This document shows, piece after piece, positions 16,725 through 52,350 of a stretch of DNA of 64,000 nt. Below the pieces are notes generated by a model, which saw nothing but the letters and a program-made list of their open reading frames with translations, had not been told where the DNA came from and ran no database searches. Numbering within the stretch: position 1 is the stretch's first letter; every line of letters starts with the position of its first letter. The DNA lies in assembly GCF_025685625.1 (NCBI RefSeq), contig NZ_JAGSYI010000003.1:434001-498000 (forward strand), read 5' to 3'. The DNA is from Acidicapsa acidisoli. Its GTDB lineage: Bacteria > Acidobacteriota > Terriglobia > Terriglobales > Acidobacteriaceae. Both the position numbers and the translations under genes were made by a program.

Positions 16725-18245
<1,521 letters not shown>

Positions 18246-19328
18246 CTAAACCGCTGCCGCGCCGCTGACAATCTCGATGATTTCCTTGGTAATCGCCGCC
18301 TGACGCAGCCGGTTCATCTGCAAGGTGTAGCTGTCAATCATGTCGGTTGCGTTGTTCGTCGCCGAATCCATCGCCGTCATTCGCGCTGCGTGCTCGGCAG
18401 CCACCGACTCCGCCAGCGCGTGAAAAAGCATTGCCGAAACATATTGCGGCAGGAGCCCGTTGAACAGCTCTTCGGCGGGCTGCTCATAGATGTAGTCCAC
18501 ACCAGCCGTACCGAACTTCTTCGCCTCTGTGTCAGCTTCCGCTGTATCCTCCGGGCTCAGCGGAACTCCAGCGGAAACTGCAGCTTCCGCAGCGCGTTCC
18601 CGCTCCTCGGCCGTAGGCTCAATCGCACTGGTAATCTCGTGCTTGCCGATCTCGATCAACGGCAGCAGGCGCTCCACAACCACGCGCTGTTGAATCACCG
18701 ACTTGAACTCGTTGTAGATCACGTAGCAGGCGTCAATCTCTTCATGCACGTAGCGCGAAACCACGTCACGAGCCAGTTCGAACACACCTCCGGCAGTCAG
18801 TTTTTCCAGCATTCCAACGTGATCGCCGATTACCTCGATCTGCTTCTTGCGCTCGCGATGCCGCTTGGTAATCGTCGAGCCCATTTCGCCTTCCACCTGC
18901 TCTTCAGTAACCACAGCAGCCGGGTAGCGCCGGCGGAATTGGTCCGTAGCCTTGCGTCCTATCGCCTCGAGATCGAACTCCTGGTCTTTGTTCGCCTCCA
19001 GAAACTGGAAGCTGGCTTTGAGGATGTTGCTGTTGAATGCCCCTGCAAATCCACGGTCGCCGCTGACCACAATCAGCAGGATTTTCTTCTCCGGCCGCGT
19101 GGCAAAGAGCGGATGACGCAGATTTCCCGTCACTGAATCGATGATCTCGATACGGCGAATCAGCGACACCAGTACGCTGGTGATCATTTGCACATAGGGC
19201 CGCGCCGCCATTGCCCTGGCCTGCGCGCGACGCAGACGGGCAGCCGAGACCATTTTCATGGCCTTGGTAATCTGCCGCGTGCTCTTCACGCTGCGGATGC
19301 GTCGCCTTAGATCGAGTACACTTGCCAT
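18246..19328 (-). CDS. atpG: F1Fo ATP synthase subunit gamma, enlarged
   Basis: Rotor shaft of F1. The N-terminal RRRIRSVKSTRQITKAMKMV and C-terminal RQAAITKEIIEIVSGAAAV helices are canonical. At 360 residues it is about 70 longer than the usual 285-300. The extra length is in two places: about residues 140-170 (charged, with STITKRHRERKKQIEVIGDH) and about 228-272 (acidic, low complexity, TAEERERAAEAAVSAG and SPEDTAEADTEAKK). The frame is continuous, so this is not an assembly artefact. Sits 23 nt after atpA. Confidence 0.95.
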   Translation of the reverse strand: MASVLDLRRRIRSVKSTRQITKAMKMVSAARLRRAQARAMAARPYVQMITSVLVSLIRRIEIIDSVTGNLRHPLFATRPEKKILLIVVSGDRGFAGAFNSNILKASFQFLEANKDQEFDLEAIGRKATDQFRRRYPAAVVTEEQVEGEMGSTITKRHRERKKQIEVIGDHVGMLEKLTAGGVFELARDVVSRYVHEEIDACYVIYNEFKSVIQQRVVVERLLPLIEIGKHEITSAIEPTAEERERAAEAAVSAGVPLSPEDTAEADTEAKKFGTAGVDYIYEQPAEELFNGLLPQYVSAMLFHALAESVAAEHAARMTAMDSATNNATDMIDSYTLQMNRLRQAAITKEIIEIVSGAAAV

Positions 19329-27980: not shown

Positions 27981-28152
27981 ACAGGGAATAGGGACTACGG
28001 AACAGAGGACAGGAAATGCGGATTGGGAGCTAGAACGTATTTGTCGCTCGAAGCAGAGAGTGGCGGTAACCCATCCTTGTCGCAAAATACGCGCCAAGGA
28101 TGGGGCACCCAGTTTGGTGGTAATTCTTAGTCCCTAGCCCCTGTTCCCTGTC
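27981..28152. repeat. Nested repeat: R2 palindrome between imperfect inverted repeats
   Basis: ACAGGGAATAGGGACTA at 27981-27997 faces TAGTCCCTAGCCCCTGTTCC at 28129-28148, continuing CTGT: the same motif inverted, with about 7 extra bases. Between them, at 28069-28113, is an R2 copy (CCATCCTTGTCGC and GCCAAGGATGGGGCACCC arms). The 178-bp gap between two lipoprotein genes is thus largely repeat DNA. Confidence 0.65.
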
Positions 28153-29545: not shown

Positions 29546-30616
29546 ATGCACTTCAGGCTCAGTCTCTTTGCATTTTTGGTTCTTTTCAACGTTCCTCTGA
29601 ATTCCCCCGGCCAGACTCATTCCACTCATCCTGTTTCTGCTCTCTGCAATGCCTGTGTCCGTGCTGAGCTTGGATTCCTTGCCAGCGATGAACTGCATGG
29701 ACGAGGCTCGGGCACGCGCGATGAACATCTGGCTGCGCTGTACGCCGCTTCGCTCTTCCAGTCTTTCGGGCTCCAGCCGGCGGGGGAAGATGGAGGCTAC
29801 ATTCAACGGGCTCCGCTGCCGAACCCGTTCCCTGCGAAGCTGGCGGAGTATCTGAAAAAGCATGGATTCGATCAGAATCAGCGCACGGATACATGGAACG
29901 CGCTGGGGATGCTGCCGGGCTCCGATCCTGTCGCCGGCAAGGAGGTCGTGCTGCTGACGGCTCATCTGGATCATCTTGGAATCGGGGAAGCTGTCAACGG
30001 AGACAACATCTACAACGGAGCGGATGACGACGCAAGCGGCACAACGGCTGTGCTGGAGTTGGCGCGAAGCTTGAGCCGAGGACCGCGCCCGCGCCGGTCG
30101 ATTCTCTTTGTGCTCTTTGGCTCTGAGGAGTTAGGAGGGTATGGCAACCAGTACTTTCTGGAGCATCCGCCGGTTGCGCTGACCCAGATTGTCGCCAACC
30201 TGGAGTTTGAGATGATTGGGCGGCCCGATCTGGCGCTGCCGAACAAGACGCTTTGGCTGACTGGCTACGAGCGCTCTGACCTTGGGCCGATGCTTGCGAA
30301 GCATGGCGCTGCGATTTCCGCCGATCCGCATCCGGATCAGCATTTCTTTCAGCGCTCGGATAACTATGCGCTGGCGAAGAAAGGGATCGTGGCGCAGACG
30401 GTTTCGAGCTTTGGGTTGCATAAGGACTACCACCAGCCTTCGGATGAGGTTTCGAGGATTGACTTTGATTTTTTGACGCGGTCGATTGGGTCGATGATAG
30501 GGCCTGTGCGGTGGTTGGCGGATACTAGCTGGCGGCCGGAATGGAATGCTGGGGGGGAAGCCGTAGTTGTTGCGCGGGCCTGGGTGGTTCCCACCCTTGT
30601 CGCGATGAAACTGTGA
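29546..30616 (+). CDS. Secreted M28-family zinc aminopeptidase
   Basis: A 356-residue metallopeptidase with an N-terminal signal (RLSLFAFLVLFNVPLN). The co-catalytic zinc ligands are visible: TAHLDHLGIG, NGADDDASGT, GSEELGGYG and the C-terminal HKDYHQPSDE. The last 10 or so residues (WVVPTLVAMKL) are encoded by the left arm of an R2 repeat, so the native C-terminus appears to have been replaced or extended by repeat DNA. Convergent with the flavoprotein gene. Confidence 0.9.
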   Translation: MHFRLSLFAFLVLFNVPLNSPGQTHSTHPVSALCNACVRAELGFLASDELHGRGSGTRDEHLAALYAASLFQSFGLQPAGEDGGYIQRAPLPNPFPAKLAEYLKKHGFDQNQRTDTWNALGMLPGSDPVAGKEVVLLTAHLDHLGIGEAVNGDNIYNGADDDASGTTAVLELARSLSRGPRPRRSILFVLFGSEELGGYGNQYFLEHPPVALTQIVANLEFEMIGRPDLALPNKTLWLTGYERSDLGPMLAKHGAAISADPHPDQHFFQRSDNYALAKKGIVAQTVSSFGLHKDYHQPSDEVSRIDFDFLTRSIGSMIGPVRWLADTSWRPEWNAGGEAVVVARAWVVPTLVAMKL

Positions 30617-30633
30617 CAAGGATGGGGCACCCA
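30589..30633. repeat. R2 palindromic repeat overlapping the 3' end of the M28 peptidase gene
   Basis: TTCCCACCCTTGTCGC and GACAAGGATGGGGCACCC form the two arms; the loop contains the peptidase stop codon (TGA, 30614-30616). Same orientation as the copies at 28069, 32751 and 43370. Confidence 0.85.
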
Positions 30634-30636
30634 TTT

Positions 30637-30654
30637 CTTTGGCGTACGCCAAAG
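30637..30654. repeat. Perfect 18-bp palindrome between convergent genes
   Basis: CTTTGGCGTACGCCAAAG is fully self-complementary and could fold as a 7-bp hairpin with a GTAC loop. It sits in the 88-bp space between the convergent M28 peptidase and flavoprotein genes. No T-tract follows on either strand. Confidence 0.5.
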
Positions 30655-32750: not shown

Positions 32751-32793
32751 TCCCACCCTTTGCGCACAGAACGCGCAAAGGATGGGGCACCCG
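32751..32793. repeat. R2 palindromic repeat between ahpD and ahpC
   Basis: TCCCACCCTTTGCGC and GCGCAAAGGATGGGGCACCC are complementary across a short loop. The TTTGCGC/GCGCAAA pair differs from TTGTCGC of other copies on both arms, a compensatory change that supports hairpin conservation. Confidence 0.8.
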
Positions 32794-37989: not shown

Positions 37990-38060
37990 CCCTCAGGGGC
38001 TCAAGCCCTTTGACGTTGCCTAGTCTATGTACGGGCTGAAGCCAGTACTCTTCAAACTGC
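37990..38060. repeat. R1 repeat, copy A
   Basis: CCCTCAGGGGCTCAAGCCC, a spacer, then TGTACGGGCTGAAGCCAGTA and CTTCAAACTG. It is the most diverged of four R1 copies: the second hairpin has a mismatch (GAAGCCAGTA) and the left outer arm is missing. Downstream of the DUF2203 gene. Confidence 0.75.
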
Positions 38061-38644: not shown

Positions 38645-38738
38645 GTCAGTTTGATGAAGAGCATACCCCTCAGGGGCTAAAGCCCTGCTATATTGGGGAC
38701 CTAATGTACGGGCTGAAGCCCGTACCCTTCAAACTGAC
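38645..38738. repeat. R1 repeat, copy B (complete)
   Basis: Bounded by perfect 10-bp inverted ends GTCAGTTTGA / TCAAACTGAC. Inside are AGGGGCTAAAGCCCT (hairpin 1) and TGTACGGGCTGAAGCCCGTA (hairpin 2, TACGGGC/GCCCGTA). About 94 bp, in the gap between the small gene at 38749 and DUF2203. Confidence 0.85.
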
Positions 38739-38981: not shown

Positions 38982-40148
38982 TCAGCCGATCTCCAACATG
39001 CGGTCGAGGGCGATCCTGGCCCAGTGCTTGACGCTGCGCTTGACGCGGATCTGATTGACGACGCGGCCTTCGACGAGGTTTTCGAGCGCCCATGCCAGAT
39101 GTTGCGGGCTGATGCGGTACATGGTGGTGCAGAGGCAGCCGGAGTCGTCGAGGGTGATGATTTTTTTGCCTTCGGCGGCGAAACGCTTCGCGAGACGGTT
39201 GACCAGGTGGATTTCGGTGCCGATGGCGAATGTCGAGCCGGATGGGGAGTCTTCGACGATTTTGATGAGGCGTTCGGTCGAGCCGAGCGCATCGGCTTTC
39301 TGGCAGACTTCCCAGCGGCATTCGGGATGGACGATGACCTGGATGCCGGGATATTTGGCGCGAACCTGATCGACGTGGCTGGGCAGGAAGCGCTGGTGGA
39401 CGGAGCAGTGGCCCTTCCAGAGAATGACCCGGCTGGCTTCGAGCGCCGACTTTGTCTGGCCGCCCTGCAATGCCCAGGGGTCCCAGACAGGCATCGCTTC
39501 GAGCGGGATGCCCATGGCGTGGCCGGTGTTGCGGCCGAGGTGCTGGTCGGGAAGGAAGAAAATGCGCTTGCCTCTGGCGAACGCCCACTCGAAGGCTGCG
39601 CGGGCGTTGGAGGATGTGCAGACCAGGCCGCCGCGTTCGCCGCAGAAGGCTTTGATGGCCGCAGTCGAGTTCATGTAGGTGAGTGGGACAAGGCCGTCGG
39701 TGAGGCCGAGCTTTTCGAGAGCTTCCCAGGCGGCTTCGACTTGCGAGATCTCCGCCATGTCGGCCATGGAGCAGCCGGCGTTCAGGTCGGGAAGGATGAC
39801 TTGCTGGATGGTGTTGCCGTCTGCGTCCTGACGGCCGAGGAGGTCGGCGCTTTCAGCCATGAAATGAACGCCGCAGAAGACGATGTATCTGGCTTCGGTC
39901 TGAGAGGCGACTTTGGAGAGCTTGTAGCTGTCGCCGGTGAAGTCGGCGAAGCGAATGACTTCGTCGCGTTGGTAATGATGGCCGAGCATGAGCACCTGGG
40001 AGCCGAGTTTGGCCCGGGCTGCTGCGATTCGGTCGTCCATGGTGTGATCGGGCAGGGCGAGATAGTTCTCGAGACTGCAGGTTTCTGTACTTGCTACATC
40101 CTGAGTGTCTACCTCGACGCCAGGCAGTTCCTCTACGAAAGAATTCAC
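38982..40148 (-). CDS. nadA: Quinolinate synthase A
   Basis: A [4Fe-4S] enzyme that condenses iminoaspartate with dihydroxyacetone phosphate to quinolinate in de novo NAD synthesis. 388 residues: LGHHYQRDEVIRFADFTGDS, VFCGVHFMAES, VICTSSNA-like GGLVCTSSNARAAFEWA, HPECRWEVCQKADALGST and the C-terminal cluster region DDSGCLCTTMYRISPQHLAW. The start is a GTG with GGAG 8 nt upstream, the ribosome-binding site directly abutting riboswitch domain 2. Partner nadB is about 7.4 kb away. Confidence 0.95.
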   Translation of the reverse strand: MNSFVEELPGVEVDTQDVASTETCSLENYLALPDHTMDDRIAAARAKLGSQVLMLGHHYQRDEVIRFADFTGDSYKLSKVASQTEARYIVFCGVHFMAESADLLGRQDADGNTIQQVILPDLNAGCSMADMAEISQVEAAWEALEKLGLTDGLVPLTYMNSTAAIKAFCGERGGLVCTSSNARAAFEWAFARGKRIFFLPDQHLGRNTGHAMGIPLEAMPVWDPWALQGGQTKSALEASRVILWKGHCSVHQRFLPSHVDQVRAKYPGIQVIVHPECRWEVCQKADALGSTERLIKIVEDSPSGSTFAIGTEIHLVNRLAKRFAAEGKKIITLDDSGCLCTTMYRISPQHLAWALENLVEGRVVNQIRVKRSVKHWARIALDRMLEIG

Positions 40149-40158
40149 CTTATACTCC

Positions 40159-40328
40159 GCCTTCAGCCCTGCGTCTGCCCGATGGGTCTAATCCCAGAGA
40201 CAGCGCGGACGGGGATGTTGAAAGCAATTACTGGTTGCAGTGGATTCACTACTGGGCAGATCGGCGGGATTCTCAGAATTGATAATCCAACCGAAACGCC
40301 CGGCCCAACCCACGGGGATGTTGCAACC
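40159..40328 (-). promoter_or_regulatory. NAD+-I (nadA-motif) riboswitch, tandem domains, controlling nadA
   Basis: On the minus strand, domain 1 (40328-40233) runs from GGTTGCA to TGCAACC (P1). It carries ACATCCCCGTGGGTTGGGC, an elaborated P3 arm, then GCCCAGTAGTGAATCCACTG, the hallmark NAD+-I core. Here P2 is GTGG/CCAC, where the remembered structural example has GUAG/CUAC, a compensatory change. Domain 2 (40225-40159) is closed by GCTTTCA/TGAAGGC and repeats the TTCAACATCCCCGTC core. The GGAG ribosome-binding site begins right after domain 2 and the GTG start of nadA lies 10 nt past it, so NAD+ binding probably blocks translation. The class is known from Acidobacteriota nadA/pnuC leaders. 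Confidence 0.92.
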
Positions 40329-40492
40329 TTCTAACTAACGATGCTGGATGAGGCGGAAACGATCAGGAAAACTGTTCGCCTCGCCGGCACCTGTTCAAAG
40401 TATTGTAACGTGCGGCGGGCGGAGGACCAAATGGATGCGGGAGACGACAATGTGGAGTTTCTATAAGCTAACCCTTGAAGACAGAAGGCGAT

Positions 40493-40518
40493 GCGTGGGA
40501 GCTGTTTGGCTCCCACGC
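40493..40518. terminator. Strong stem-loop 3' of the BON-domain gene (no T-tract)
   Basis: GCGTGGGAGC and GCTCCCACGC form a perfect 10-bp stem with a TGTTTG loop, beginning 19 nt after the BON gene stop on the minus strand. No run of T follows in either direction, so it may be a processing or stabilising hairpin or a U-less terminator. The remaining DNA to 40328 shows no gene. Confidence 0.5.
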
Positions 40519-40537
40519 TCGGTGGCCTGGGCGCGGA

Positions 40538-41098
40538 TTATGAGTTGGCGGTGGAGTGTTTGCCCGGCTTGACTTCGATTTCGTTGACGACCTGCTGGAC
40601 GTTCGGTACGTGCTTGGCGAGGTCTTCCGCTTCCTTTTTCTGCTTCAAGGTCTTCACGGTTCCTTTGAGCAGCAAAGTTCCGTTCTTGGCGGAAGCGCTG
40701 ATGCTCTGGTCGTTCAGGTTCTTGTGTTCTTTGATCTCTGCCTTGAAGTTGTCTTCGATGGCTGAATCGCGGTTGGATGCGACCGATCCGGCCTGGCTGT
40801 CTCCGGGAGGACGAACCCCTATCTCATCAGCAATGGTGTAGTCGGGGGCGGCCTGCCGGGCGAGGGTTTCGGCCTGGGTCTTTTGATCCGGGGAGTCAAC
40901 GTTGCCGGTGAGCGTCATTACGCCCTTGTCCCGGTCCTGAGAGACGCTGACGGCGCTGAGCTGGTTGTTATTGAGCTGGGTGGTCACCGCGGATTTTTCG
41001 TCGGGATGGGAAGAGTTGCAGCCTGCTATGGCGATGGCTCCGAGCAGTACAGCCGTCGAACCGAGCAGAAATTGATGCCTTACACGGGTGTCTTTCAT
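40538..41098 (-). CDS. BON-domain lipoprotein
   Basis: 186 residues: signal plus lipobox (FLLGSTAVLLGAIAIAGCNS), then two BON domains: one about residues 35-80 (LSAVSVSQDRDKGVMTLTGN, then AETLARQAAPDY) and one about 110-175 (SISASAKNGTLLLKGTVKTL, then VPNVQQVVNEIEVKPG). BON proteins (OsmY-like) sit in the periplasm and respond to envelope or osmotic stress. ATG at 41098 chosen because the lipobox falls in place. Divergent from the NTF2-like gene. Confidence 0.85.
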   Translation of the reverse strand: MKDTRVRHQFLLGSTAVLLGAIAIAGCNSSHPDEKSAVTTQLNNNQLSAVSVSQDRDKGVMTLTGNVDSPDQKTQAETLARQAAPDYTIADEIGVRPPGDSQAGSVASNRDSAIEDNFKAEIKEHKNLNDQSISASAKNGTLLLKGTVKTLKQKKEAEDLAKHVPNVQQVVNEIEVKPGKHSTANS

Positions 41099-41220
41099 GT
41101 TTTTCCTTTCTCTTTGCTGAATCAAATTGCAGGATTGGATTGGAGAATCGGATTTGAAATTCGAACAACTCCTACCGCAAAGTGGGATGCTGGCCTTTGA
41201 AGCGCAGTTGTTATTGACCA

Positions 41221-41248
41221 AAACAGCACTGGTCGAAACAGCACAGGT
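41221..41248. promoter_or_regulatory. 13-bp direct repeat in a divergent promoter region
   Basis: AAACAGCACTGGT (41221-41233) and AAACAGCACAGGT (41236-41248) differ at one base and are 15 bp apart centre to centre. They lie between the divergent BON and NTF2-like genes, next to a TTGACC. Could be an activator/repressor site array; unproven. Confidence 0.35.
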
Positions 41249-41735: not shown

Positions 41736-41828
41736 GTCAGTTTGAAAAAGGCCAACCCTCAGGGGCTAAAGCCCCAAAGATTGCAAGACTAAATGTACGG
41801 GCTGAAGCCCGTACCCTTCCAACTGAAC
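41736..41828. repeat. R1 repeat, copy C
   Basis: Left end GTCAGTTTGA, hairpin 1 AGGGGCTAAAGCCCC, hairpin 2 TGTACGGGCTGAAGCCCGTA, right end TTCCAACTGAAC. Same orientation and spacing as copy B (about 93 bp). It lies between the NTF2-like gene and the tat pair. Confidence 0.85.
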
Positions 41829-43348: not shown

Positions 43349-44319
43349 GGTTTGGGACTTTTGCTGTATCCCACCCTTGTCGCGATAAGGCTGCGCCAAG
43401 GATGGGGCACCCAGTTTTTTCTCCAACCGACCCGGTTTTGTGGGTTCTGTTTTTGCTGATGCTTCCTGCTTCAGGGTTGGCGCAGCAGCATTTTCGTGGG
43501 GATCGGGCGCTGGAAATTACGCGGGAGTTTGTGGCCATTGGGCCGCGCTGGTGTCTTAGTCCTGGACATGCCAAGGCGGAAGCGTTCTTGCGGAACGAGT
43601 TTAAGCACGACCAGCTTGAGGAAGACACCTTTACTGCCAATACGCCGATTGGGCCGGTGCCGATGCGCAACTTCATTGTGCGGTTTCCCGGCAAGAAGGA
43701 TGGAGTCATCGTTCTCACGACTCACTATGAGACCAACTATCCGCTGCGGAATATCGGGTTTGTGGGCGCGAATGATGGCGGATCGACCACTGGACTGTTG
43801 ATCGAGATTGCTAACGAGTTGCGGGGGAAGGTTCTGGACGGCTACAGCGTCTGGCTGGTCTTCTTTGACGGAGAAGAGGCTATCGAGCGCTGGCAGGGCA
43901 CGGACAACACCTATGGCAGCCGCCATCTTGCGGCCAAGTGGGGCCAGGATGGGACGCTCAAGCGGATCAAGGCCTACATGCTTGCGGACATGCTCGGCGA
44001 CAAGGATCTGAATGTGCAGAAAGAGAGCCAGTCTACGCCGTGGCTGATCGATCTGGTGGCACAGGCGGCACGGAATACCGGACATTCGAAGTATTTCTTT
44101 CAGACCGAGGGCGCTGTCTCGGACGATCATCTGCCATTTGTGCAGCGCGGCGTGCCGTCCATCGACGTGATCGACATTGACTATGGGCCGCACACACAGG
44201 AGCTCCCGGACGGATACCATCACACGGCGCAGGACACGATGGACAAGATCAGCGCGAAGAGCCTAACGGTTGCAGGGGATGTGTTTCTGGAGAGCATCAA
44301 GCTGATCGATCAGAAGTAA
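43345..44319 (+). CDS. Glutaminyl-peptide cyclotransferase-like M28 metalloenzyme, exported
   Basis: 324 residues. The catalytic part resembles glutaminyl cyclase more than an aminopeptidase: TTHYETNYP, GANDGGSTTGLLIEIANEL, VFFDGEEAIERW, NTYGSRHLAAKWG, MLGDKDLNV, SDDHLPFVQRGVPSIDVID and GPHTQELPDGYHHTAQDTM. The signal-like segment LWVLFLLMLPASGLAQQ sits unusually late, at about residues 32-48. The first 27 residues are encoded by an R2 repeat. The GTG at 43345 overlaps the tatC stop and has AGAGG upstream; the ATG at 43402 is an alternative giving a conventional signal peptide. Likely forms N-terminal pyroglutamate on exported proteins. Confidence 0.85.
   Translation: MRFGTFAVSHPCRDKAAPRMGHPVFSPTDPVLWVLFLLMLPASGLAQQHFRGDRALEITREFVAIGPRWCLSPGHAKAEAFLRNEFKHDQLEEDTFTANTPIGPVPMRNFIVRFPGKKDGVIVLTTHYETNYPLRNIGFVGANDGGSTTGLLIEIANELRGKVLDGYSVWLVFFDGEEAIERWQGTDNTYGSRHLAAKWGQDGTLKRIKAYMLADMLGDKDLNVQKESQSTPWLIDLVAQAARNTGHSKYFFQTEGAVSDDHLPFVQRGVPSIDVIDIDYGPHTQELPDGYHHTAQDTMDKISAKSLTVAGDVFLESIKLIDQK
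43370..43413. repeat. R2 palindromic repeat inside the 5' coding region of the QC-like gene
   Basis: CCCACCCTTGTCGC and GCGCCAAGGATGGGGCACCC arms around AATAAGG-type loop sequence; in frame it reads SHPCRDKAAPRMGHP. It lies between the coupled GTG start and the signal peptide. Confidence 0.85.
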
Positions 44320-47593: not shown

Positions 47594-49213
47594 CTACCAG
47601 GCTGCGAAGGATGGCTGCTCCGCTCCATTCGTGGTTTGCGTGAGGATGGAGTGCTTGCGGAAGTTTGCGTCGTCGCGGCGGGGGTGGTCTTCGCGGAAGT
47701 GCGCGCCTCGGCTTTCAGTGCGGGCCAGGGCGGAGAGCAGGATGGTTCGGGAGACGGCGAGCAAGGATTGGGCTTCGATGAGGGCACGGCTGCTCCTGCT
47801 CTGCTGCGCGATGCTGCCTACGGAAGTTTCGATGGTTTGAATTTTGCTTAGGCCTTCGCGCAGGGTCTGTTCGTGGCGGAGGAGGCCGGCGGTTCGCCAC
47901 ATGGTGCGCTGGAGATGCTGGATGAGTTGGGTGAGTTGCGTCTCATCGTTTGTATTGATTGAATTGGGTGGCAGGGTGGGCGCGGGGCCGGAAGCCTGGA
48001 CCGGCGCGAGGCTGGCGGCGTCTTCCAGCATTGCCTTGGCAGCGCGAGCGCCGAAGACCAGGCCTTCGAGGAGAGAGTTCGATGCCAGGCGGTTTGCGCC
48101 GTGGACGCCGGTGCAGGCGGCTTCTCCGGCGGCGTAGAGGCCGGGGACCGAAGTGCGTCCGTCGAGGTCCGTTCGGATGCCGCCCATGAGGTAGTGTGCC
48201 GCAGGGCGCACCGGGATGAGATCGGCGCTGAGGCTCAGGCCGTGCGTCGCGAGGAACCTGCTGATGCCGGGAAAACGATGGGACAGATCCACGCCTTGCA
48301 CGTGGCGCATGTCGAGATAGACGGGGCGGGACTGACTGGGTTGCGGCCCCATGCCTTCGCGTGCAATGGCTCGGGCGACTACGTCGCGGGGAGCCAATTC
48401 GAGGCTGGCGTGGTAGCGCTCCATGAAGCGCTCGCCGCGATCGTTGCGCAGATACGCGCCCTCGCCGCGCAGGGCTTCTGAGAGCAGAAAGCGGGGAACG
48501 CCCGGCAGCGACAGGGCCGTCGGATGGAACTGGTAGAACTCCATGTCGGCCAGTTCCGCGCCAGCGTGCGCTGCGAGTGCGATGCCGTCGCCGGTCGCGA
48601 CCGCTGGATTGGTGGTATCGCTGTACACCTGGCCGGCTCCGCCGGAGGCGATCAGTATGGCGCGGGCGCTTATGCGGCGAGAGGTTGCGTCTTGATCTGT
48701 AAGATCGGCGGCGATGGCGCGGCCATCGGTGATTACCAGATTCGTCGCCATCGTCCATTCGGCGAAACGGATGCGGGGGTGGTTGCGGGCGAAGGCTACG
48801 AGCGAGCGGCTGATCTCCGCGCCGGTCGCGTCGCCGTTGGCGTGGAGAATGCGCGGGTGGGAGTGGGCGGCTTCGCGGGTGCGCAGCAGTTGTCCGTTGA
48901 GTTGGTCGAAGCCCGCGCCCCACTCGATCAGTTCGGCCACGCGCTGCGGGCCTTCCTCCACTAGAACCGCTGCGGCGGGTCGGTGCACTAATCCATCGCC
49001 TGCCGCTACGGTGTCTTCAAGATGCAGGGCGATGTCTTCCGGGCCTTCCGTTGCGACCGCGATGCCACCCTGCGCATAATGCGTGTTCGATTCGCCGAGC
49101 GATTCCTTGGTGACGACTAGAACGTTGCCGTGGTCGGCGAGTTCGATGGCTGCGCGCAGGCCTGCTACGCCTGCTCCGATGATGAGATAATCCGTAAACT
49201 CCACTTCAGACAT
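47594..49213 (-). CDS. nadB: L-aspartate oxidase
   Basis: A flavoprotein that oxidises aspartate to iminoaspartate, the substrate of NadA. 539 residues: DYLIIGAGVAGLRAAIELAD, SLGESNTHYAQGGIAVATEG, RVAELIEWGAGFDQL, HYLMGGIRTDLDGRTSVPGL, YAAGEAACTGVHGANRLASN and SLLEGLVFGARAA. The start is the ATG at 49213; a GTG at 49231 is an alternative. Unlike nadA, its leader shows no NAD+-I-like core (no CCCCG pair). Confidence 0.95.
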   Translation of the reverse strand: MSEVEFTDYLIIGAGVAGLRAAIELADHGNVLVVTKESLGESNTHYAQGGIAVATEGPEDIALHLEDTVAAGDGLVHRPAAAVLVEEGPQRVAELIEWGAGFDQLNGQLLRTREAAHSHPRILHANGDATGAEISRSLVAFARNHPRIRFAEWTMATNLVITDGRAIAADLTDQDATSRRISARAILIASGGAGQVYSDTTNPAVATGDGIALAAHAGAELADMEFYQFHPTALSLPGVPRFLLSEALRGEGAYLRNDRGERFMERYHASLELAPRDVVARAIAREGMGPQPSQSRPVYLDMRHVQGVDLSHRFPGISRFLATHGLSLSADLIPVRPAAHYLMGGIRTDLDGRTSVPGLYAAGEAACTGVHGANRLASNSLLEGLVFGARAAKAMLEDAASLAPVQASGPAPTLPPNSINTNDETQLTQLIQHLQRTMWRTAGLLRHEQTLREGLSKIQTIETSVGSIAQQSRSSRALIEAQSLLAVSRTILLSALARTESRGAHFREDHPRRDDANFRKHSILTQTTNGAEQPSFAAW

Positions 49214-52242: not shown

Positions 52243-52350
52243 GACCGGTTTGGAAAAACAAACCCTCAGGGGCTAAAGCCCCATTCTTTTTGCGTGATTT
52301 ATGTACGGGCTGAAGCCCATACCCTTCAATCCGTACCTTTGCAACTGAAC
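52243..52350. repeat. R1 repeat, copy D
   Basis: CCCTCAGGGGCTAAAGCCCC, a 23-bp spacer, then TGTACGGGCTGAAGCCCATA with the usual TACGGGC/GCCCATA hairpin (one mismatch), and outer ends GACCGGTTTGG and a diverged right arm. Between ubiE and the CDF gene, only 17 bp before the latter's start. Confidence 0.8.

Follow-up and report, generated by a model that had tools for sequence, protein, structure and literature searches.

Riboswitches of the NAD+-I class, of which 101 members were counted in 2019 (figure quoted in PMC7749635), precede nadA as two tandem domains. That domain 1 recognizes ADP is agreed in PMC10702441, PMC7708056, PMC7297122, PMC9481103 and PMC7749635, all of which are cited here from excerpts, and the first three of these place the ribosome-binding site in P1', the closing helix of domain 2. 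Whether domain 2 binds ligand is disputed between PMC10702441 and PMC7708056. In the excerpts of the latter, binding by domain 2 is about 35-fold weaker than binding by domain 1 (PMC10702441 quotes the apparent KD as 3.4 mM), whereas PMC10702441 itself reports that no domain 2 binding was detected. An earlier, sequence-only reading of the locus described here had called the ligand of domain 2 less clear, in agreement with this literature.

In this paper we describe the nadA leader in a window of 64,000 nucleotides (the whole stretch of DNA that was analysed) and compare it with 222 distinct tandem elements from the same family. The element is an ordinary, complete copy of the already known riboswitch class NAD+-I.

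Materials and methods

Matches to Rfam were obtained with cmscan; the gathering score of RF03013 (nadA/NAD+-I riboswitch) is 37.5 bits. Occurrence was surveyed in a phylum sample of 396 genomes and a family sample of 398 genomes. The family of the window is taken to be Acidobacteriaceae, with Granulicella sp. dw_53 and Acidobacteriaceae bacterium KBS 83 within it.

The 248 loci examined comprise the 240 matching family genomes once each together with two repeats, L064, L065 and L066-L069. Elements were parsed as gap-free helices over a score limit, with a 5' strand ending in a pyrimidine and a purine and with two mismatches to ACANCCCC allowed in J1. This gave 230 tandem elements, which became 222 distinct ones when 8 identical repeats were dropped; all 222 are from one family and amount to approximately 42 effective sequences, those more than 85% identical being down-weighted. 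The 18 loci without a gap-free domain pair were left out. Among these, L064, L065 and L155 are weak stray matches, and two broken assemblies account for L148, L149 and L340, the last two being one genome. The remaining 12 were read by eye: they have the two J1 motifs, with GCTTTCA preceding the second; in most of them P1 of domain 1 pairs only with gaps, and in L314 the domains lie far apart. Column pairs were ranked by corrected mutual information, neighbours within two columns being left out.

Results

Identity and placement of the element

Both domains score above the RF03013 cut-off (Table 1), and the complete tandem NAD+-I riboswitch proposed by the sequence-only reading is borne out by this covariance-model search: its coordinates and strand are correct, all of the sequence motifs that it quoted are present, and RF03013, the NadA profiles and the Shine-Dalgarno overlap agree with the class, gene and translational layout that it claimed. 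No other Rfam match over the cut-off was found in the rest of the window, and these two are the only RF03013 matches at E <= 0.001 in the whole genome. Read 5' to 3' on the minus strand, domain 1 and domain 2 are separated by a 7-nt linker; GGAGUAUAAG comes next, and then, 10 nt 3' of domain 2, an open reading frame of 388 aa opens with GTG, so that two tandem domains precede one NAD+-synthesis gene. The profiles TIGR00550 and PF02445 both match this frame, as expected of the GTG-started nadA that had been placed directly 3' of the leader. Of the other genes of the pathway, nadB lies about 7.5 kb off in the same window (47681-49192, minus strand) and nadC is on another contig, so neither carries the element. 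A scan of positions 40100-40560 for promoters and terminators found none, and no promoter-like site.

Table 1. Positions in the window of the leader features and of nadA
Feature	Position	Strand	Basis
Domain 1 (ADP-binding aptamer by homology)	40233..40328	-	RF03013 57.5 bits, E 6.6e-11; fold z -4.38; P1 and P1a covariation in 222 relatives
Domain 1 P1	40328-40322/40239-40233	-	
Domain 1 J1 bulge ACAUCCCC, 8 nt	40321-40314	-	
Domain 1 P1a	40313-40307/40246-40240	-	
Domain 1 J2	GG 40306-40305, AGUG 40250-40247	-	
Domain 1 P1b arm, long (54 nt), made of stacked helices	40251..40304	-	Fold; length ranking in 222
Interdomain linker, 7 nt	40226..40232	-	Sequence; 7 nt is the commonest length (51/222)
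Domain 2	40159..40225	-	RF03013 41.8 bits, E 2.7e-6; fold; P1' 5' strand the same in 222/222
Domain 2 P1'	GCUUUCA 40225-40219/UGAAGGC 40165-40159	-	
Domain 2 J1 ACAUCCCC	40218-40211	-	
Domain 2 P1a hairpin, without J2	40210-40166	-	
Shine-Dalgarno GAAGGCGG	40157..40164	-	5 paired letters within P1', 2 beyond; pairs with this genome's 16S tail at -7.9 kcal/mol
nadA (quinolinate synthase), GTG start, 388 aa	38982..40148	-	ORF; TIGR00550 308.9 bits (cut-off 262.9); PF02445 319.2 bits

The letters of the ADP pocket (C6-G and A7-U of P1, A8, C9, A10 and the C12-C15 run) are present in both domains, as is a canonical J1. A canonical J2 (GG/AGUG) is found in domain 1 only, where it matches the class pattern G23 G24 / A35 G36 Y37 G38.

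Upstream of the leader and on the same strand, an open reading frame with BON domains (PF04972) at 40538-41221 ends 209 nt before domain 1. Two dispersed repeats were also noticed. One, CCCTCAGGGGCTAAAGCCC ... ATGTACGGGCTGAAGCCCGTACCCTTC, lies in direct orientation at window positions 38021-38060, 38658-38737, 41747-41826 and 52254-52334 and flanks nadA on both sides; its 27-bp core has 48 copies in the genome at up to 2 mismatches, against 0 for a reversed control. The other is palindromic (CCCATCCTTGTCGC...CAAGGATGGGGCACCC; window positions 18191-18246, 28070-28110, 30589-30640, 32752-32792 and 43369-43420), and an exact 17-mer from it has 5 copies in the genome.

Folding and the arm of domain 1

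Folded alone, domain 1 (-43.4 kcal/mol) was equalled in stability by none of 200 shuffles and shows the known form, with P1, the 8-nt bulge, P1a, an internal loop and a long arm. Domain 2 alone (-28.6 kcal/mol; 3 of 200 shuffles as stable) also takes the known form, with a bulged A in P1a. The helices P1a and P1b of the structural papers are those that the sequence-only reading had named P2 and P3, and the arm that it put at about 50 nt is 54 nt long. In the minimum-energy fold the arm helices are GGGCG/UGCCC, UCGGU/GCCGA and GGAUU/AAUCC, the last of which had been predicted; a predicted GGCG/CGCC helix is absent from that fold.

Across the 222 elements, P1b of domain 1 has a median length of 21 nt and a maximum of 95, and it reaches at least 54 nt in 11 including this copy, which is thus longer than about 95% of the set. 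The arm is therefore an expansion, as had been suggested, in length but not as a special feature. Arms of similar length in the genus-mates L046, L278 and L284 are unrelated to it in sequence, and the excerpts of PMC7708056 report that the non-conserved part adjoining P1b is dispensable for binding and was swapped for tetraloops; on these two grounds, and judged by sequence comparison, the long arm is ordinary length variation whose sequence is not conserved. Domain 1 arms of more than 90 nt occur in L153 and L154 (G524 and G551, one genus) and in L150 (G499, another genus), and there RF03013 reports only domain 2.

Occurrence in the phylum and the family

In the phylum sample 36 genomes are over the RF03013 cut-off, with two matches each, and all 36 belong to the family of the window, which contributes 44 of the 396 genomes. 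Two genomes of other families (G116 and G276) each have a single match below the threshold; a second domain was not seen in either and the matches are probably due to chance. In the family sample 240 genomes match, 238 of them above the cut-off; both domains are present in all 238, two of the pairs being incomplete owing to assembly. Nine of the 240 matching genomes gave a single match, but single-domain riboswitches were rejected as an explanation, eight of the nine having a second domain on looser search or parsing. It was recovered in G401, G480 and G562 by a looser search and in G499, G524 and G551, which have a very long domain 1 arm, and it is present, incompletely, in G518, where the contig end truncates the pair, and in G476, where an assembly gap breaks it. 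In G677, which has sub-threshold matches only, a second domain was not found by looser search and parsing.

Conservation and covariation

Covariation cannot be seen in a single sequence, and the claim that P2 covaries did not stand on that footing; among the 222 relatives, however, P1a of both domains covaries strongly, as does P1 of domain 1, and the top fourteen column pairs are all helix pairs of these three helices. P1 of domain 1 exists in at least 25 versions. The 5' strand of P1', in contrast, is GCUUUCA in every element, opposite UGAAGGC in 200, UGAAAGC in 19, UGAGAGC in 2 and UGGAAGC in 1, which makes the third pair U-G, a wobble, in 200 elements and U-A in the remaining 22; a C in place of the wobble U was found in none of the 222. 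The parser constrained only the helix score and the end of the 5' strand, so the first five letters of GCUUUCA were not built in. This invariance may well be contained already in the class consensus of Malkowski et al. 2019, reportedly the original paper of the class.

The pocket bulge of domain 2 is nearly as conserved as that of domain 1. In domain 2, J1 is ACAUCCCC in 199 of 222 and varies only at positions 11 and 13, C13 being replaced by U in 8 and by A in 7; domain 1 has free variation at position 11 and, in 4 elements, U for C13. Since two mismatches were allowed in J1, more decayed bulges would be missed by the parser; the 12 loci inspected by eye contained no such bulge. C6-G and A7-U are unchanged in both domains of all 222, an invariance partly built in because the parser required the pair and the pyrimidine-purine strand end. 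The natural C13A loci of domain 2 are L066 (=L293), L068 (=L300), L199, L275, L298 and L338, in the genus of the window (G431, G575, G586, G522, G612 and G597), and L238 outside it; in the excerpts of PMC10702441 the same change, engineered in domain 2 of a relative, is reported to impair regulation.

J2 with G36 and G38 in strict register is present in 201 of the 222 domain 1s, and twelve of the 21 others are by eye without a recognizable J2. L151 (C13U) is also without J2 by eye, but a match of its loop to the motif placed it among those with J2. Variation of C13 in domain 1 accompanies loss of J2 in 2 of 21 against 2 of 201 (P 0.046), which is too weak to lean on. The pocket is intact in the domain 1s that lack J2 by eye, namely L330, L331, L333, L335, L337, L322, L151, L310, L315, L317, L325, L328 and L329, and the first six of these have G+C-rich, hairpin-like linkers of 21-22 nt. 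In the set of 222, domain 2 has no conserved J2. The retention of the domain 2 pocket without J2 would fit, but does not prove, a lower-affinity pocket of the same kind as described in the excerpts of PMC7708056.

Linkers vary from 4 to 34 nt. An antiswitch in which a GCAGUG-like stretch in linkers of 10-14 nt would pair with the 3' side of domain 1 was considered and rejected. These linkers have a mean pairing score of 12.53, against 8.82 when shuffled (62 elements, 34 of them scoring at least 13), but linkers dealt among genomes score 12.36, so there is no linker covariation; linkers of 4-9 nt, including that of this window, show no excess (7.77 against 7.82 shuffled, 149 elements). In genus g4, linkers of 10-14 nt (e.g. 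L004 and L206) carry GCAGUG, complementary to CACUGC on the 3' side of domain 1.

The Shine-Dalgarno sequence and the stability of P1'

At its 3' end the 16S rRNA gene of this genome reads ...CACCUCCUUUCUAAG, the mature end being approximate, and this tail pairs best with the leader at GAAGG.GG. The sequence-only reading correctly located the ribosome-binding site at the closing strand of domain 2, but the site does not simply abut that strand, five of its seven pairs lying inside P1'. The same pattern of 5 + 2 pairs is found in 180 of 222 elements, and at least 3 pairs lie inside P1' in 221 of 222. As a control, the tail was paired with the matching stretch after domain 1 (median -3.0); in 210 of 222 elements that duplex is weaker than the one at the domain 2 site.

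P1' has a stability of -6.9 kcal/mol, against a median of -9.1 for P1 of domain 1, and is the weaker of the two in 203 of 222; with C-G instead of the U-G wobble it would reach -9.6 kcal/mol. The median ensemble values of the closing P1 are -4.9 kcal/mol for domain 2 and -7.2 for domain 1. These computed energies suggest that P1' may be kept weak enough to compete with the ribosome. In energy models, which omit ligand, Mg2+ and tertiary contacts and give a fold that depends on the flanks, the unliganded probability of P1' in this leader ranged from 0.01 to 0.93 over 12 flank choices and was below 0.5 in 10; two other set-ups gave 0.02 and 0.57, and 99 of the 222 elements were below 0.5. In the competing fold J1 pairs with the Shine-Dalgarno sequence and GCUUU with the start region, so part of the Shine-Dalgarno sequence is hidden there too. 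Because this J1 pairing is prominent in only 70 of 222 elements, the alternative unliganded fold was not taken as the mechanism.

Discussion

By analogy with its relatives, this element is with high probability (about 0.9) a complete NAD+-I riboswitch that turns off translation of nadA when NAD+, or another ADP-bearing cofactor, is plentiful. The class, gene and anatomy, the overlap of P1' with the Shine-Dalgarno sequence, the conservation and the covariation are observed here; recognition of ADP by domain 1, the J1-J2 contacts and an OFF regulation that needs both domains are taken from excerpts of work on published relatives, and we infer that this copy behaves as they do and how its domains communicate. 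In domain 1 the P1/J1 junction would take up the ADP half of the ligand, with the J1-J2 pairs C13-G38 and C14-G36 holding it in place. Domain 2 would be the gate, with the Shine-Dalgarno letters GAAGG sequestered in a P1' that is weak because it retains the U-G wobble. Its stability is close to that of the duplex which the ribosome forms with these letters, so that it could be tipped shut once domain 1 is occupied or docked, and possibly by ligand in the domain 2 pocket. The energy models, which do not favour P1' in this leader when unliganded, count against this reading, as does the lack of a promoter-like site in 40100-40560. NAD+ is not certain to be the signal in the cell, since according to the excerpts of PMC10702441 full-length RNA of the class did not discriminate against ATP in vitro. 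Attempts at an E. coli reporter are reported in PMC7708056 to have been unsuccessful.

How domain 1 would close the gate is where the published models part. In the model of PMC10702441 domain 1 alone binds and letters of J1 and J2 dock the domains, which stabilizes P1'; an earlier docking version cited there has domain 2 hold the nicotinamide half. We give this model not quite an even chance. It has the 1:1 stoichiometry of the full-length RNA on its side, and C12, C14 and C15 of domain 2 are invariant in the 222 elements though there is no conserved J2 for them to pair with. It sits less easily with linkers of 4 to 34 nt and with the seven natural C13A domain 2s. No column pair between the domains rises above background (best 0.101, against 0.111 for the best pair with a linker or downstream column and 0.163 for the weakest helix pair shown), but this is a weak counterpoint, as invariant letters cannot covary; the candidate letters hardly vary, and docking is therefore neither backed nor ruled out by covariation. 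In the model of PMC7708056 NAD+ occupies both pockets, that of domain 1 with high affinity and that of domain 2 in the millimolar range, and it is the filling of domain 2 that shuts the gate. This two-threshold switch, to which we give a somewhat lower chance, agrees with the bound NAD+ in the domain 2 crystal of that paper, with the same pocket letters in domain 2 (J1 varying only at N11 and C13 in either domain, and the C6-G and A7-U pairs constant in both, in part through the parser), and with the 13 domain 1s that by eye lack a recognizable J2 and still keep the pocket. The isothermal titrations of PMC10702441, with no binding by domain 2 and one ligand per full-length RNA, argue against it.

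A further reading, which we regard as rather unlikely, is that domain 2 is a frozen, ribosome-matched gate and not a second free aptamer. GCUUUCA would then mimic CCUUUC of the 16S 3' tail, and the wobble (200 of 222) would keep P1' so weak that the ribosome just wins, except when the J2-less, low-affinity ADP pocket or docking is engaged; if so, the natural J2-less domain 1s would be versions of the switch with two low-affinity domains. A pseudo-riboswitch, or a chance resemblance without function here, is hardly credible: both domains exceed the cut-off before the right gene, with the defining letters and the Shine-Dalgarno overlap intact.

The probable OFF switch described here is one more NAD+-I riboswitch, and its value to the specialist lies in the comparative set of 222 distinct tandems, in which natural variants (J2-less domain 1s and C13A or C13U domain 2s) and the invariant P1' strand bear on the role of domain 2. 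Four points of comparison on that domain emerge: a fixed P1' strand with its wobble, a Shine-Dalgarno sequence with most of its pairs inside P1', a pocket bulge conserved without J2, and no interdomain covariation above background.

Among known systems, as described in excerpts of the papers cited, the NAD+-II (pnuC) riboswitch is named for the same cofactor but recognizes the nicotinamide riboside half of it and does not notably resemble domain 2 (PMC7749635). The ubiB variant of the nadA motif has a similar domain 1 with an 8-nt bulge, but PMC7297122 describes its domain 2 as a stem-loop without interruption, whereas domain 2 here has the full bulge. With the NAD+-I class itself (RF03013; PMC10702441, PMC7708056, PMC7297122, PMC7749635) the leader shares the two tandem bulged hairpins, the ACANCCCC bulges, J2 in domain 1, the Shine-Dalgarno sequence in the 3' strand of P1', nadA downstream and the Acidobacteriota; it differs in no class-defining trait, its own features being the 54-nt P1b of domain 1 and the bulged A in P1a of domain 2. 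The nadA leader of Acidobacteriaceae bacterium KBS 83 (L067), the organism of the solved domain 2 (PMC7708056), has the same core letters, 7-nt linker and downstream nadA, and differs in the interiors of domain 1 (38 nt against 74 nt here) and domain 2 (28 nt against 45 nt here).
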